Positions 14,962 to 61,000 of a stretch of 64,000 bases of DNA are shown in pieces; the first letter of the stretch is position 1; every line of letters starts with the position of its first letter. This stretch comes from a virus: positions 1 through 64,000 of the IMG/VR virus record IMGVR_UViG_3300019926_000010; one strand, written 5' to 3'. Made by a program: the position numbers and the translations under genes. Below the pieces are notes generated by a model that saw only the letters and a program-made list of their open reading frames with translations, did no database searches and was not told the DNA's origin.

Positions 14962-17900
14962 CAGTCCAAATTGACGTAGAACTTAACGAGCAGTGGCGCG
15001 ACGATCTGGCTGAACTCAAGACTGAGTTTCAGTCGATGGACGGTGACGAGGTTGACCTCGACGCCAACATTCGACCTGCCCAGCGCGAGATCGCTGAACT
15101 TCGCACTGACCTTTCTGCTCTCACAGATAAAGAACACAAGGTCAAAGTTGATGTTGATAAATCTCAGTTTGATGAGAAGATCAAGTCGATTAAAAATCTT
15201 CAATTAGATGATCCTGATATTGACCTTGGTGACGTTGGTGACGTTGATGGTTCAATCAGTATCACCAGCGACATTGACGAAGACGATCCTCTAATTTCCG
15301 CCCTTCTTGACGATGAAAGCGAACTTTCTACCGATGGTACAGTTCGGTGGACTTCTCGTGGTGGCTATGGTCCCTCAAGCGGATCGGGTGTAATTCACTG
15401 GGATTCCGATGTCGATACAACTGATCTAATCCAGGAACTTGAAAAGGCTAAGAAGGAAGCCAAAGCCGCTGGTGCAACCGAAATAGACTATAAACTCACT
15501 CCCGAAGATGGAAAGTCATCTAAGTTTCTTGACGCTATAACGGATGATCGTAAATCTTCAACGACTAATCGAACCCACAATTACGAAGAATACACTAATT
15601 ACACCAGTCGGGTTGACCACGCCGCCTTTGAAGATGCTAAAGAGGAAGTTGAAAAGCTCAAACAGGGCTTCAAAAAGAACGGCCTAAACAAGATCACCAC
15701 GGAGTTCTGTGTTGAGCGGTGTGACAACTGGAAGGAAAACCTCCAGAACATCTACAAGGATCTTGATGCCCTCCAAGAGTGGCAGGACGAGAACGGAGAG
15801 ATCAAGATTTCGCTCGCCGGTAACCTCGATGAAATCGAAGATACTCTTGACCAGCTTGAAGAAAGCGGCTTCGAGCCTCGCGCTGGGGGAGACGAAACCG
15901 AAGTAGAGCGGATGAACCGGAGGGCAAACTCCGGTGGAACCGAGTCGCAATGGGAGATGGTCAAGGAACACCTCGGGATCGAGGATGATGATGGTTCCGG
16001 TGGTGGAGACTCAGACGGTCCCAGTAAACCCGGTTGGACTCGTGAAGACCGGAAGTGGATGGGTGGCGGAATTAGTAACGCTATCGTCACCGAGGCCAGC
16101 GGTCAGTTAGATCGACTGGATAACACTCTCGATTCGCTTGGTATTGAGGGTTCAGTAGAGGGTGATCGGTTCACTCCACAGGACATCTCTGTTACAACCG
16201 CGATGGAAGATAGGGCGATCCACTCCCTTCACGGCGAATCCGTTGCTAATTCCCCTGCGGCAAATCTCCATCGAAAAAGCGACGAAGTTCAGGAAACCGC
16301 CCAACGGCAGGCGTTTTCTGACATCGTTCGTGAGTACGACAAAAACGTTGGTAACTCCTATAGTGGTCGAGATTACAGTGACCACGGAGAATTTGATCCG
16401 TTCAGAAATCAGGGGATCACCAAGGGAAGCTCGGGGAAGATGTGGGCAACCCCGGATGCCATTGGAAATACGTTAGACAAAGAACACGGAACGAATCCCT
16501 TCACTTCTCGTGAGAGGGCATTTCTTAGCAGGTTCGGTGTTGACATGAAGTCGTCGGGATTCTTTGGTTCTGATGATGATTCTTCGATGGCTGATTGGTT
16601 TAGGTCAGTCAGCATCCGGAGAACTGGTCCCGGTGGATTAGGTCAGTTCTCTGCTAACGCCAATCGGTTTAAAAGAAGTGGCACGTCGAACTGGGGAAGT
16701 ATCCTCGGTTTCAGTGGCTTACCTGGATTCGATAGTGACACTGGCAAGCAGAAAGCCAGCGGTATGGGTGCATTGAAGAAGCTGATGCCGACGATGGCTA
16801 AATACTGGCAGTTCCTTGCTCTGCTGTCCCCGATGCTGATTACTCTGGCCGCGAACGCGGCTGGGGTTGCGGCGGCTATGGGTTCCATTGCTGTCGCAGG
16901 CGGTGCAGTTGTGGGTCTTGGCCTTCTCGGGTTTGGGAGTAATCTCAATGACTCTCTTGCGAAGGCACAGAAGAAACTCAAGACCTTCAAGAAAGAGATG
17001 TTCGGTGCGTTCCAGTCCACCTTCCAAGCGTTTTCACCGTTCACTGAAGGCTTCCTGACAACGGCACCCATGCGCGTGGGTCCACTCGCTGAGTCTTTGA
17101 AAGGACTCACTGAGTTCATGCCAACGTTCAACAACGCCTTTGATGGCGTCATTAGCTGGGCGGCTGAGTTCATTGATCTCGTCGTCAAGATGCAACCGAT
17201 GCTATCCCAGCTTGGGATGCGGTTCGGGAAGATCATCGGTGACATCATGCTGAAAGCGTTCCAGTGGCTCACCGAGACGGCTTATAAAAATCAGGACGTG
17301 ATGATTGCTGTCGGTGAGGCGATCTACAACATCATCACTGTCCTTTATCAGGTCGCTCAGGTGATGACGTACCTCGTTGCGATCTTCTCTCCGTTGATCT
17401 GGATGTTCAAGACGTTCGCGTCGTTCATCTCGGAAAGATGGGTTGCCGCAATGATTGCAGGCGCGATGGCCGTTTACGGAATTGCGACCGCGGTTGGTGT
17501 CTTGTCGGGCGCGTTCTCGACTATGATGGCAACCAGCTTCTCCTCGATGGCCTCTTCGATTGCCTCCTTCGCGGCGACCGCAATCACGTCGTTCCTTGCG
17601 GCGGCTGAGGCGCTTGCTGTGCTGATTGCTGGTGAGGCTACCCTCATGGCGATGACCGGTGCTGGACTCGCTCTCGTCGCCGCTGGCGTCACCGCAGGGT
17701 ACATGGCATACAACGCTATCGCTCCCTCCGGAATGTCGTCCAGCCTCGGGGGTGGCAGTGGTGCCGCTCCTGGTATCGGTGGTGGCGTCGGTGGTGGTGG
17801 CGGCAGTAGCGGTTACGAACCCGGAAACGGGATGGCTGGCGGAAAGACGGTTATCAACGTCAAGGGAGACATCACGAAGGCGACGATCTCGGACGTTGAG

Positions 17901-20255: not shown

Positions 20256-20319
20256 TCTACAGTAGTTGTTATACGTTGCTGTAAAAAGATGCTGTAGCGG
20301 GGCTTCTCGAAGATACCGA

Positions 20320-20381
20320 CTACAATATACAGCAACGTATTACAGTACCTATTAACTATATTGTTACAATGGCGTGAGCGG
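20320..20381 (+). repeat. 62-bp control repeat, copy 1
   Basis: 62 bases that match 47628-47689 at 57 positions. It contains TACAG half sites (ATACAGCA, TTACAGTA), an AT-rich centre ATTGTTACAATGG and ends TGAGCGG; the string TGAGCGGCCCCAA that follows also occurs near 60979. Sits 45 bases upstream of the TATA box at 20429. Likely a regulator-binding region. Confidence 0.7.
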
Positions 20382-46021: not shown

Positions 46022-46067
46022 CGCCTCAACGAGGACTCGAACCCCGATTAATCAACCTGATGAGACA
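46022..46067 (-). ncRNA. tRNA-like minihelix at the nuclease gene end
   Basis: Acceptor TGTCTCA/TGAGGCG (7 bp, two wobbles), linker TCAGGTTGATTAAT, T-arm CGGGG-TTCGAGT-CCTCG, one base. The stop codon of the endonuclease gene (46048-46050) lies in the linker, so the RNA element overlaps the gene end. A 6-bp hairpin TCCCCT-CGGTCAT-AGGGGA follows. Total 46 bases. Confidence 0.7.
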
Positions 46068-46509
46068 ATCTATTTTCAATTAACAATTCTTCAGAAATAT
46101 TTGCTCGTTCTTTATTTCGAGGGTCAATTTGAGATTTAGGATTCATATTTATACTCATTTGACTTTTTGGGGCTTCATCGAATGGAATCCAGTATATCTC
46201 ACTACTATATGGATTTCTTATCGCGTAAACGTCTATTTCATTTTCTGAATATTCTTTTCTATTAACTTCTCCATCAGGTCCGTAATTTTGATTTCGTAAC
46301 TCTACCCTTACAGAACCTTCAACTGTTGACTTAGGTTTGAAAGCAGTTTTACATTGTACCTTTAATAATTCATTGCTTAAATCTGCAATTAAATCATATC
46401 GTTCATTATCTCCTACGGGTTCAGAGACGCTATATCCAAGTTTAAGAAGTTTTACCACTATTTTGTTTTCTGTTATAGTTCCTTGTCTAAGAGAACTTTC
46501 TCCCGACAT
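46048..46509 (-). CDS. AT-rich PD-(D/E)XK endonuclease
   Basis: 153 residues, unlike its neighbours in base composition (very A/T rich, many AAA, ATT, AAT). The order GDNERYDLIAD, QCKTAFKPK fits the PD-(D/E)XK core (Asp, then Glu/Gln-x-Lys) of archaeal endonucleases such as the PF11645 type related to homing enzymes. It sits between tRNA-Asn (3 bases from its ATG) and the minihelix. Likely a mobile, free-standing homing endonuclease. Acidic catalytic residues are readable, target unknown. Confidence 0.75.
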   Translation of the reverse strand: MSGESSLRQGTITENKIVVKLLKLGYSVSEPVGDNERYDLIADLSNELLKVQCKTAFKPKSTVEGSVRVELRNQNYGPDGEVNRKEYSENEIDVYAIRNPYSSEIYWIPFDEAPKSQMSINMNPKSQIDPRNKERANISEELLIENRLSHQVD

Positions 46510-46512
46510 TAC

Positions 46513-46585
46513 GTCTGGTCAAGGAGTCGAACCTCGCACAACACCGTTAACAGCGGCGTGCCCCCACCAAGGGGGCCTACCAGAC
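46513..46585 (-). tRNA. tRNA-Asn (GTT)
   Basis: 73 bases. Acceptor GTCTGGT/ACCAGAC, D-arm GCCC...GGGC, anticodon arm CGCCG-CTGTTAA-CGGTG with anticodon GTT, T-arm CGAGG-TTCGACT-CCTTG. All arms fold. Odd: position 8 is A, not U. The endonuclease ATG starts four bases after the acceptor end (discriminator G, then TAATG), so cleavage at the tRNA 3' end would free an almost leaderless mRNA. Confidence 0.9.
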
Positions 46586-46795
46586 ACGATGCCGGGATGA
46601 AAACACCCGGCGATTATGACCGCTACCCAAACCAGCACGCCTCTTTCGAGGCAATAGAGGCCGCCAGGCCCCGTACTGGGGAATCTGTCGCTGGCAGATC
46701 CCCCTCAAATTGCCCTACTCGCTGAAGGGATGCTATCAGGCATCCACTCCACACGAGTAAACGTGCCCCGACACCATAAAGGTGCCGATTGAACA
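46586..46795 (-). ncRNA. Highly structured non-coding stretch before tRNA-Asn
   Basis: About 210 bases with no gene but with six hairpins in a row on the minus strand: GGCACC/GGTGTC, CACG/CGTG, GGATGC/GCATCC, a 10-bp stem GGGGGATCTG/CAGATTCCCC, GCCTC-GAAA-GAGGC (GNRA loop) and GCCGGG/CCCGGC. Probably further RNA units or leader structures. Transcribed from the TATA site near 46838. Confidence 0.5.
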
Positions 46796-46835
46796 ATGTG
46801 GTATGCTTTGATTAATGCGATGAACTATACAGACT

Positions 46836-46850
46836 GTTTATATAAGGGGG
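46836..46850. promoter_or_regulatory. Bidirectional TATA-like element
   Basis: The palindromic core TTATATAA lies between the minus-strand tRNA array and the plus-strand zinc-finger gene. On the plus strand it is about 45 bases before ATG 46883; on the minus strand it would start a transcript near 46812, just ahead of the structured RNA. Inferred role: shared start for divergent units. Confidence 0.5.
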
Positions 46851-46882
46851 ATTTATACTCCTATACACGGGTAAGATTGAGC

Positions 46883-47485
46883 ATGGTAGATAAGGGATAT
46901 GAAACTCACAGTAATGATGAGCCGATCCGAAAATGTCCTTACTGCGAGTGGGAAGGGGCGTCTCGTGGATTAACGTTCCACGTATTGAACAAAAGCGACG
47001 AAAAGCATGATGAGAAATATGAACTGCCTGACGATTTTGAAGCATCTGAAGCCGAGATCGTCGGCTACGAGAACGTTGATGTGGAGATGCCTGACTCCTA
47101 CAACGTCGAACATAAAACCAGATATGTTTGCGATTATTGTGGGAAGATTTGTCGGGGGTCCGGTGGGCTGAAAGTCCACCTGCAACGTCTCGCTGGAGAC
47201 GAAGTACATCCCGACGACGCAGAAGATCGAGAACCCGACTCCTTCCCACAATTCAAGGTCGGAGAAGACGGCCAACTCGTCCCACAAGACGATGCCTCGC
47301 TGGAGGTAGCCACAGGAGGCGCTGTTGGCGACGAGAGCGGATCTTTGGAAGAACAGGATGTCGTGCCCGTGGAGGAACTGGAACAGCTTAGAGACAGCTT
47401 CGTGGAGGAGGGAGACAACTATGACACTATCTCTCCCGGACAAGCCGCCCAACGTGTCCAGCAGATCATCAACAAGTATCAGTAA
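46883..47485 (+). CDS. Two-zinc-finger protein
   Basis: 200 residues. First finger CPYCEWEGASRGLTFHV...H, second CDYCGKICRGSGGLKVH...H, both C-x2-C...H...H (C2H2-like). The second half is acidic with a C-terminal helix. Start at 46883 matches the TATA-box position; an upstream ATG at 46796 would lie in the promoter. Likely DNA-binding regulator of the first plus-strand early unit. Confidence 0.75.
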   Translation: MVDKGYETHSNDEPIRKCPYCEWEGASRGLTFHVLNKSDEKHDEKYELPDDFEASEAEIVGYENVDVEMPDSYNVEHKTRYVCDYCGKICRGSGGLKVHLQRLAGDEVHPDDAEDREPDSFPQFKVGEDGQLVPQDDASLEVATGGAVGDESGSLEEQDVVPVEELEQLRDSFVEEGDNYDTISPGQAAQRVQQIINKYQ

Positions 47486-47561
47486 TCGAGTTTTATCGGA
47501 AGTCTTATAGTGCTGGATCACGTCTACTTGGTAGAGCGGTTATTCTCTCTTTCCGTCGTTG

Positions 47562-47689
47562 TAATACAGTGCTGTAATGCTGTGCTGTAGTGGGTACCTT
47601 CCTGACGTTAACAGCACCGCACTCCAACTACAATATACAGCAACACAATACAGTACCTATTACGTATATTGTTACAATGGCGTGAGCGG
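47562..47689 (+). promoter_or_regulatory. Control region C (TACAG/CTGTA repeats; 62-bp repeat copy 2)
   Basis: Contains TAATACAGTGCTGTAA at 47562-47577, further TGCTGTG/TGCTGTA half sites, CTTCCTGACGTTAACAGCA (shared with the leader near 500) and at 47628-47689 the 62-base block shared with 20320-20381 (57 matches). No clear TATA box is seen before the gene at 47737. Probable operator cluster. Confidence 0.65.
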
Positions 47690-47736: not shown

Positions 47737-48240
47737 ATGTCTTTTGACGAAGACCAAGGAACGAATGTTTCCTCTGGTACCGACAACGCGACTACCTTTC
47801 ACGCACAGGATGCACCAAACACCAAACGACTCGATGGTCCCGCTGAAACGAAGCGAGAGCAGATGAAACGCCTGTTCACCGAGTATCAAACTGGTACTCG
47901 TAACGGGAAGTGGCGCGAAGAGAAGAAGATCCGGAAGCAGGATAACTCTGCCATGTTCGGTGCGGTTGCGGGTCAGCTCGAACTGCCTCGGATTCTCCGC
48001 GAAGAAGGGCAGAAATTCCTGGATGACATGAACCTCCGGGAGTACGGTCACCCGACTCGGCTTGTTGTGTTCTGTCTTTGCGCTCAGTTATACAACAAGA
48101 AGGCCGCCGACGAGTACCGCTACCACCCGAACCGCAACGACGACAAGAACCCTGATCGGTTCCTCGACCTCGCTGACGATCTCGGACTACGGTACAGTCA
48201 AATCATCTCGGTATACAACAAAGTGGGTCAGGATCTTTAA
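47737..48240 (+). CDS. TFB-like (cyclin-repeat) protein
   Basis: 167 residues. From about residue 60 the sequence follows the first cyclin repeat of archaeal TFB: a charged REEKKIRKQDNSAMFGAVAG helix, LPRILREEGQKFLDDMNL, PTRLVVFCLCAQLYNKKAA, then DLADDLGLRYSQIISVYNKV. It lacks the N-terminal zinc ribbon and the second repeat. I infer a truncated transcription-factor mimic that may act at viral TATA promoters; the function is not shown. Next gene overlaps the stop by 1 base. Confidence 0.6.
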   Translation: MSFDEDQGTNVSSGTDNATTFHAQDAPNTKRLDGPAETKREQMKRLFTEYQTGTRNGKWREEKKIRKQDNSAMFGAVAGQLELPRILREEGQKFLDDMNLREYGHPTRLVVFCLCAQLYNKKAADEYRYHPNRNDDKNPDRFLDLADDLGLRYSQIISVYNKVGQDL

Positions 48241-48365
48241 TGGGTAAAATGTCACCCAAGATTCCGTGCAGTGAGTGCGGTGATCGAGCGCGAAAACGAT
48301 TCAACGGGAAGCTATACTGCTCGGATTGCTTCGATGACCTCGTTCCACTTGACTTCAAAGGATAA
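48240..48365 (+). CDS. Small zinc-finger protein
   Basis: 41 residues with CSECG and CSDC, one zinc ribbon. ATG overlaps the stop of the TFB-like gene and its stop overlaps the next ATG (TAATG), so all three are coupled. Confidence 0.6.
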   Translation: MGKMSPKIPCSECGDRARKRFNGKLYCSDCFDDLVPLDFKG

Positions 48366-48604
48366 TGCCTCTCTGTAAATGCTGTCGTGATTCGTGTGAT
48401 TGTTGTAAAAGGTGTGATCGGTGTGGTCAATCAATGGATGATAGGCCAGATCGTACCGAAAGTGTAGCAAATTCTCAAGAACTTCTTGGTATTCTTATGG
48501 AAGTTCTCGGTAACGACCTCCAAAATGGAAAGTCGATACTTCATATCGACATGGATAACGACATTTCTAATAGTCAGAAAAAAATTGAGTTGGTTCTTTC
48601 GTGA
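48365..48604 (+). CDS. Cys-rich protein
   Basis: 79 residues with seven cysteines near the N-terminus (CKCCRDSCDCCKRCDRCG). Tail is helical with an acidic end. Could bind two metal ions. Starts on TAATG overlap, ends inside the next GTG start. Confidence 0.6.
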   Translation: MPLCKCCRDSCDCCKRCDRCGQSMDDRPDRTESVANSQELLGILMEVLGNDLQNGKSILHIDMDNDISNSQKKIELVLS

Positions 48605-49074
48605 GTCAGTTCACGATAGTCGTAGATGGTAGAGAGCAGAAGGGTCACGGTTACACCTTCGACTCATGGCCCGTCGATACCGTCCGAAAGAACCTCTCTG
48701 ACATGGGTTCTGAAGGTGATTACTCAATTGAAGGATACGAAGATCAGTTCGCAGTAGAACGAAAATCGCTCGGTGATCTCGCTACCTGTGTCGGGGCGAA
48801 GCGGGACGAACACTTCGAGCCGCAGGTTCAACGTGGCGTTGACCGACTTGACCGATATGCAATTGTCGTTGAAGCACCACGCTGGGAGATCGAGAAGGGG
48901 AACTACTTCTCTCACGTTCATCCGAACTCGGTCCTCGGAACGATTGACTCCTGGTCGAGGCCGAGTCATTACGGAGTTGACTTCCACCTCTGCGACGACA
49001 AGTATAAGGCTGAGGTTAAAACTTATACACTGCTCGCAAAATGGAAGGATGAAGCTGATCGAGGTGTTCTCTGA
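48601..49074 (+). CDS. ERCC4/XPF-type nuclease
   Basis: 157 residues beginning at GTG 48601 (overlap GTGA with the stop before). Nuclease core: VDGREQ, GDYSIEGY, FAVERKSLGDL - the conserved GDY and ERK-S motifs of the XPF/Mus81 family. It is a stand-alone nuclease domain without helicase or HhH tail. Structure-specific cutting of branched viral DNA is likely. Confidence 0.85.
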   Translation: MSQFTIVVDGREQKGHGYTFDSWPVDTVRKNLSDMGSEGDYSIEGYEDQFAVERKSLGDLATCVGAKRDEHFEPQVQRGVDRLDRYAIVVEAPRWEIEKGNYFSHVHPNSVLGTIDSWSRPSHYGVDFHLCDDKYKAEVKTYTLLAKWKDEADRGVL

Positions 49075-60955: not shown

Positions 60956-60973
60956 TAATACAGTGCTGTATTA
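60956..60973 (-). promoter_or_regulatory. Palindromic operator of region D
   Basis: TAATACAG-TG-CTGTATTA is a perfect inverted repeat (8-bp arms). It follows the promoter at 61001-61020 by about 30 bases, close to the predicted start site, so a bound repressor would block transcription. The same half sites occur at 47562-47577, 20260-20350 and, as GTTAACAG, at 425-556. Confidence 0.65.
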
Positions 60974-61000
60974 CTGTAGTGAGCGGCCCCAACCGACCTC

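Follow-up and report, generated by a model that had tools for sequence, protein, structure and literature searches.

The viral gene at 47737-48240 probably encodes a single-cyclin-repeat cofactor of an epsilon/TFB superfamily, a protein that would associate with the polymerase or initiation complex of the host and shift its use of promoters or templates. By profile comparison, the nearest cellular relative of the viral family is the haloarchaeal RNA polymerase subunit epsilon and not TFB (scores 80.5 and 33.9). The sequence-only reading had proposed a virus-encoded truncated TFB; an epsilon-like polymerase cofactor is the better fit. Computation supports a conserved gene, a cyclin fold, a linker and first repeat that are retained, a zinc ribbon and a second repeat that are lost, and homology to epsilon. 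From these we infer association with polymerase, promoter preference and timing, as well as binding to RNA polymerase, TBP or DNA.

The window analysed is 64,000 bases out of the 65,389-base virus record IMGVR_UViG_3300019926_000010. The gene and its surroundings are arranged as follows.

46796-47485, plus strand: zinc-finger (C2H2/CxxC) gene, a conserved upstream neighbour (phrog_14797, E 5e-31; PF00096 below cut-off)
47560-47590, plus strand: cluster of direct and inverted repeats, in the same intergenic region as the 66-bp element below (repeat search)
47624-47689, plus strand: repeat element (operator/promoter region C) in the intergenic stretch ahead of the gene, with a second copy at 20316-20381
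47737-48240, plus strand: coding sequence of the epsilon/TFB-like single-cyclin protein, ATG to TAA, 167 aa (phrog_12649)
48240-48365, plus strand: 41-aa Cys-rich ORF with CSEC...CSDC, overlapping the stop of the preceding gene (TAATG)
48365-48604, plus strand: 79-aa Cys-rich ORF with start/stop overlaps at both ends
48601-49074, plus strand: ERCC4 (XPF)-type nuclease with a GDY...ERKxxxD motif (PF02732, E 6e-6; phrog_3490; adjacency)

The open frame proved real at its exact coordinates and strand, and it is conserved in tailed haloarchaeal viruses. The phrog_12649 profile, of unknown function, matches residues 4-164 (E 7e-35). A tblastn search with the window protein matched 53 tailed haloarchaeal virus records at a query coverage of at least 80% and below 60% identity, all of which annotate the homolog as "hypothetical"; they include HF1, HF2, HSTV-2, HRTV-5/7/8/25/27, HCTV-6 and VOLN27B. 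The regions read belong to Hafunaviridae, with the exception of Hardygib1 (unclassified Caudoviricetes), and the gene is present in every examined virus of the Hafunaviridae-type group. Gene order is constant in 9 of 9 regions: a zinc-finger/CxxC-type or hypothetical protein, an opposite-strand endonuclease, the homolog of 47737-48240 and an ERCC4-type nuclease. The window shares this order with two small extra ORFs ahead of the nuclease and without the endonuclease directly upstream. Since the profile match, the 53 homologs and the constant order in nine regions all coincide on this frame, it is not a chance ORF. Further upstream in the window, a PD-(D/E)XK endonuclease gene (46048-46509, minus strand; PF11645, E 1e-28; PADLOC homing-endonuclease match) adjoins a tRNA-Asn gene (46511-46586).

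That the gene follows an operator region, as had been suggested, was borne out by a real repeated intergenic element together with the direct and inverted repeats. The two copies of the element share 91% identity across 66 bp (E 9e-22), the copy at 20316-20381 lying upstream of baseplate-like genes. Shorter pieces of it occur near 372-540 and 60956-60992. In HF2, the mapped transcription start site T-17022 lies in a conserved bidirectional promoter region set among 12-bp direct repeats at regular spacing (PMC8707807). The homolog in this virus, HrrHF2_215, is encoded on the reverse strand from position 16985, and because its start codon is only 37 nt from this site, T-17022 most likely serves HrrHF2_215 and the nuclease gene. 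The viral protein would be produced from a repeat-containing promoter region along with the nuclease.

Within the protein, four parts can be distinguished.

47776-47799, plus strand: conserved N-terminal motif G-T-D-N-A-T-T-F (D-T-x-N-A-T-x-F/I in the family), from family alignments and hhalign
47851-47892, plus strand: helix of residues 39-52, corresponding to the TFB helix Q-M-x-R-L-R-K-W ahead of repeat 1 (AlphaFold, hhalign)
47902-48234, plus strand: single five-helix cyclin fold of residues 56-166, corresponding to cyclin repeat 1 of TFB (AlphaFold, Foldseek against PDB)
48109-48129, plus strand: H3-H4 loop motif D-x-x-R-Y-x-P, residues 125-131, in near-invariant alignment columns

An initial AlphaFold model from a 14-sequence alignment (six helices, pLDDT 67) was replaced by one from a more diverse 17-sequence alignment (pLDDT 76, core about 90-96). 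In the latter, the cyclin-domain helices span residues 56-80, 85-97, 107-122, 140-149 and 153-166 in the order of a cyclin repeat, an extra helix (39-52) precedes the fold and the N-terminal 35 residues are modelled at low confidence. High-probability Foldseek matches in the PDB begin with TFIIB, archaeal TFB and Brf chains, with cyclins next. The TFIIB/TFB/Brf matches reach probabilities of up to 0.99, many at about 3 Å across roughly 100 residues, and their individual E-values are weak (0.1-3). Most query-normalised TM-scores lie at 0.40-0.47, which is partly due to the low confidence of about a third of the query. In a library of viral structures, annotated viral TFBs are among the best matches. 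One fold match, the HGTV-1 protein R4TKY1, was set aside as no sequence tie to it was found. The fold predicted is therefore a cyclin repeat, as the sequence-only reading had it; a different fold, which would have refuted that reading, did not emerge. The prediction agrees with profile alignments to TFB that score above all shuffled controls.

In those alignments (hhalign), the viral family scored 38.8 against 24 archaeal TFBs (E 5e-5), where the highest of 300 column shuffles was 27.1 and reversed versions gave about 20. After more sequences were added, the viral family reached 33.9, the mobile-element group related to it 45.5 (E 5e-6) and a profile pooling every group 49.6; shuffled versions of the three did not exceed 18.6, 18.7 and 17.4, respectively. 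A real-protein negative control, the ERCC4 family, gave 10-15. The N-terminal motif aligns with the TFB linker D-K-G-L-S-T-x-I and with T-P-S-A-T-V-I of epsilon. The family's match to TFB is collinear, the helix R-L-x-x-Y-N following the linker and falling on Q-M-x-R-L-R-K-W and the remainder on cyclin repeat 1; in the mobile-element group it extends from DTxNATxI on DKGLSTxI through to the end of the repeat. Isolated TFB pieces gave weaker scores that do not discriminate (20.1 for repeat 1, 24.1 for repeat 2); the domain is assigned to repeat 1 on account of the collinear linker. The D-x-x-R-Y-x-P loop is specific to the family and is not found in TFB.

The zinc ribbon of TFB, with its two CxxC, is absent, as had been claimed. 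The window protein has only two cysteines (FCLC, residues 113 and 115), and no PF08271 zinc ribbon was found above the curated cut-off anywhere in the virus record. The model of this 167-residue protein likewise contains one cyclin repeat and no second. Canonical TFB genes were not found in the virus record, in 11 related viral records or in HGTV-1.

The link to epsilon emerged from searching 392 haloarchaeal genomes with the viral profile, which matched in 174. The matches comprise (i) close homologs of 160-200 aa, mostly with an ERCC4 gene; (ii) divergent proteins of about 190-310 aa; (iii) one chromosomal protein per genome of about 255-330 aa (E 1e-5 to 1e-7), annotated in haloarchaeal replicons as "DNA-directed RNA polymerase subunit epsilon". 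Aligned by hhalign, the viral family and epsilon match at 97.4% with a score of 80.5 (E 1e-11; shuffles at most 23), and in a reciprocal search of 4,492 ORFs with an epsilon profile, the viral family outranked every decoy. The link holds at the level of the family, because the epsilon profile does not reach the window protein by itself, which has diverged too far; an intermediate group matches that protein at E 4e-38. Epsilon and TFB on their own do not align significantly. Epsilon has no model that we could find in Pfam or NCBIfam, and Pfam, NCBIfam, PADLOC and PDB sequence searches with the viral protein or epsilon returned nothing informative. Viral contigs yielded no relatives when scanned with only the window protein, with the mobile-element groups or with epsilon; a plasmid match to Rhizobium (E 4) was put down to chance. 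In the tree, one long branch attaches epsilon and gives no direction of descent. On these profile relationships the viral and mobile-element proteins, epsilon and TFB form one superfamily, TFB being a distant relation, and epsilon itself appears, judged by its relationship to the viral proteins, to be a TFB-like protein with a single cyclin repeat.

Viral protein and epsilon (rpoeps; OE_1279R of Halobacterium salinarum) share homology over about 130 residues at family level, a single-domain plan without zinc ribbon, a common [N/S]-A-T-x-[F/I] motif and a helix ahead of the cyclin-like domain. They differ in that epsilon, at 255-330 aa and about one per genome, has its own conserved N-terminal (RLETRPGSGSLSR...RWG) and C-terminal (LPAYGRNPYRDPNLP) parts, which in the combined alignment are absent from the viral protein, whereas the latter is about 160-180 aa, lies beside an ERCC4 nuclease gene and carries the R-Y-x-P loop motif. 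Epsilon is an additional polymerase subunit in H. salinarum and a subset of haloarchaea (PMC8305020). As relayed in that 2021 review, which cites Madon & Zillig 1983 and Leffers 1989, purified polymerase transcribes native templates efficiently with epsilon and not without it; the same review calls its biological relevance enigmatic. Within our incomplete coverage of the literature, we found nothing tying epsilon to TFB or to viruses.

Divergent family members in haloarchaeal genomes (L025, L131-L133) lie near recombinase-like and restriction-modification-like genes, sometimes directly adjoining the recombinase. These neighbours (tyrosine recombinase-like, restriction-modification-like) are putative, assigned by reading the ORFs in three wider regions. 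The setting suggests that the divergent members are parts of small integrative elements.

A serious alternative, overlooked in the sequence-only reading and in our estimate unlikely, is that the viral protein serves as a DNA-targeting or regulatory subunit of the downstream ERCC4-type nuclease, with a role in recombination, replication-fork processing or genome maturation. For the viral subfamily we rank this first among the rivals because the ERCC4 gene lies directly downstream and because one contig carries both as a single frame. Every hafunavirus sampled, like the closest proviruses, has the nuclease gene immediately after the homolog, stop and start codons nearly always overlapping, and these nucleases retain GDY and ERKxxxD. 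The single frame (L024:2944-3936, on the 72-kb metagenomic viral contig IMGVR_UViG_3300010222_000171) joins the epsilon/TFB-like domain and the nuclease in 331 aa, the nuclease part having no start codon of its own. It is one metagenomic case and is either a real fusion or an indel artefact. Against a nuclease subunit, the wider family (L025, L081, L085-L104) has no ERCC4 nuclease gene in the stretches examined, and epsilon's partner is RNA polymerase. In the window, moreover, the nuclease gene at 48601 lies in the same operon but past the two small overlapping Cys-rich ORFs, which stand between both genes. The 41-aa ORF is absent from the relatives read, where the gene continues straight into the nuclease gene. 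Its CSEC...CSDC resembles a zinc ribbon, and the TFB zinc-ribbon model does not match it.

Somewhat less probable still would be direct derivation from a host TFB, the protein then acting as a dominant-negative or specificity factor that occupies TBP/promoter complexes without recruiting polymerase. Such a factor would account for the retained linker and cyclin repeat 1 and for the loss of the zinc ribbon and repeat 2, and the viral protein does resemble archaeal TFB/TFIIB (PF00382, PF08271) in its cyclin-repeat fold and in being collinear with it from the linker motif through repeat 1. However, epsilon is closer than TFB, and repeat 2, which is used for the orientation of TFB on the BRE (PMC7289017), is missing. 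Pfam searches gave no PF00382 (TFIIB) match to the window protein or its family; with the direct search uninformative, "a TFB by Pfam" was rejected as a description. The combined alignment further shows that the TFB positions G-R-S and K-E-I-G-R are unconserved in the viral subfamily, which has other residues there, and TFB-like contacts therefore cannot be assumed. Of the truncated TFB first proposed, the cyclin repeat and the loss of the zinc ribbon thus stand; membership of the Pfam TFIIB family and TFB as nearest cellular relative do not. Among cellular proteins, a 145-aa open frame of Haloarcula argentinensis (G001:C14:302276-302506) has one PF00382 match over the cut-off and is a possible one-repeat TFB paralogue or fragment. 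That the protein is a scaffold built on the cyclin fold, or a host-takeover factor, without a direct part in transcription or nuclease action is very improbable: many adaptors use the cyclin fold, the N-terminal 35 residues are of low confidence and the loop motif is specific to the family, but the kinship to epsilon and TFB is specific and extends even to the linker region beyond the cyclin fold.

We propose that the viral protein is a polymerase cofactor. Recruitment of polymerase in the manner of TFB is impossible since the zinc ribbon is missing, which is why a cofactor role is proposed. The protein would use its linker motif and cyclin repeat to bind the RNA polymerase or initiation complex of the host, taking the place of epsilon or working beside it, and would shift the promoter or template choice of the host polymerase during infection in favour of viral ones. 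The data suggest that the virus brings its own polymerase cofactor.

By analogy, precedents may be found for both halves of this proposal. TFB3 of Sulfolobales and Thermoproteales is a single-cyclin-fold TFB paralogue acting in trans with canonical TFB (PMC7289017, PMC3189178); it is a cellular crenarchaeal paralogue reported to lack no more than one cyclin fold, and in the viral protein the zinc ribbon is missing as well. For viral targeting of initiation, TFBs encoded by viruses (SSRV1/Italian rudiviruses, Aoguangviridae) are likewise initiation-factor homologs carried by archaeal viruses (PMC9501531, PMC10768690), but these are recognised TFB homologs, unlike the single-repeat phrog_12649 family known only as "hypothetical". 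RIP (ORF145) of Acidianus two-tailed virus is a viral regulator; its target is the host polymerase, and it mimics the TFIIB B-linker (PMC9501531). In contrast to the present family, it is described as sharing ancestry with a viral structural protein and not with TFB or epsilon, and its effect is global inhibition.

What is new here is that, by sequence kinship, the nearest cellular kin of this viral family is epsilon rather than TFB. Epsilon thereby gains a structural reading as a single TFB-like cyclin repeat. The authors of the HF2 study expected virus-encoded factors and named zinc-finger and HTH proteins as candidates (PMC8707807). For the early-middle-late programme of tailed archaeal viruses without their own polymerase, the epsilon relative is a concrete further candidate factor. 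More tentatively, and with the balance somewhat against it, epsilon may be a domesticated TFB derivative without zinc ribbon, and rival versions of it may serve tailed viruses and integrative elements in retuning the polymerase of the host. If so, a polymerase subunit would be exchanged in sigma-like fashion between host and virus in Archaea.
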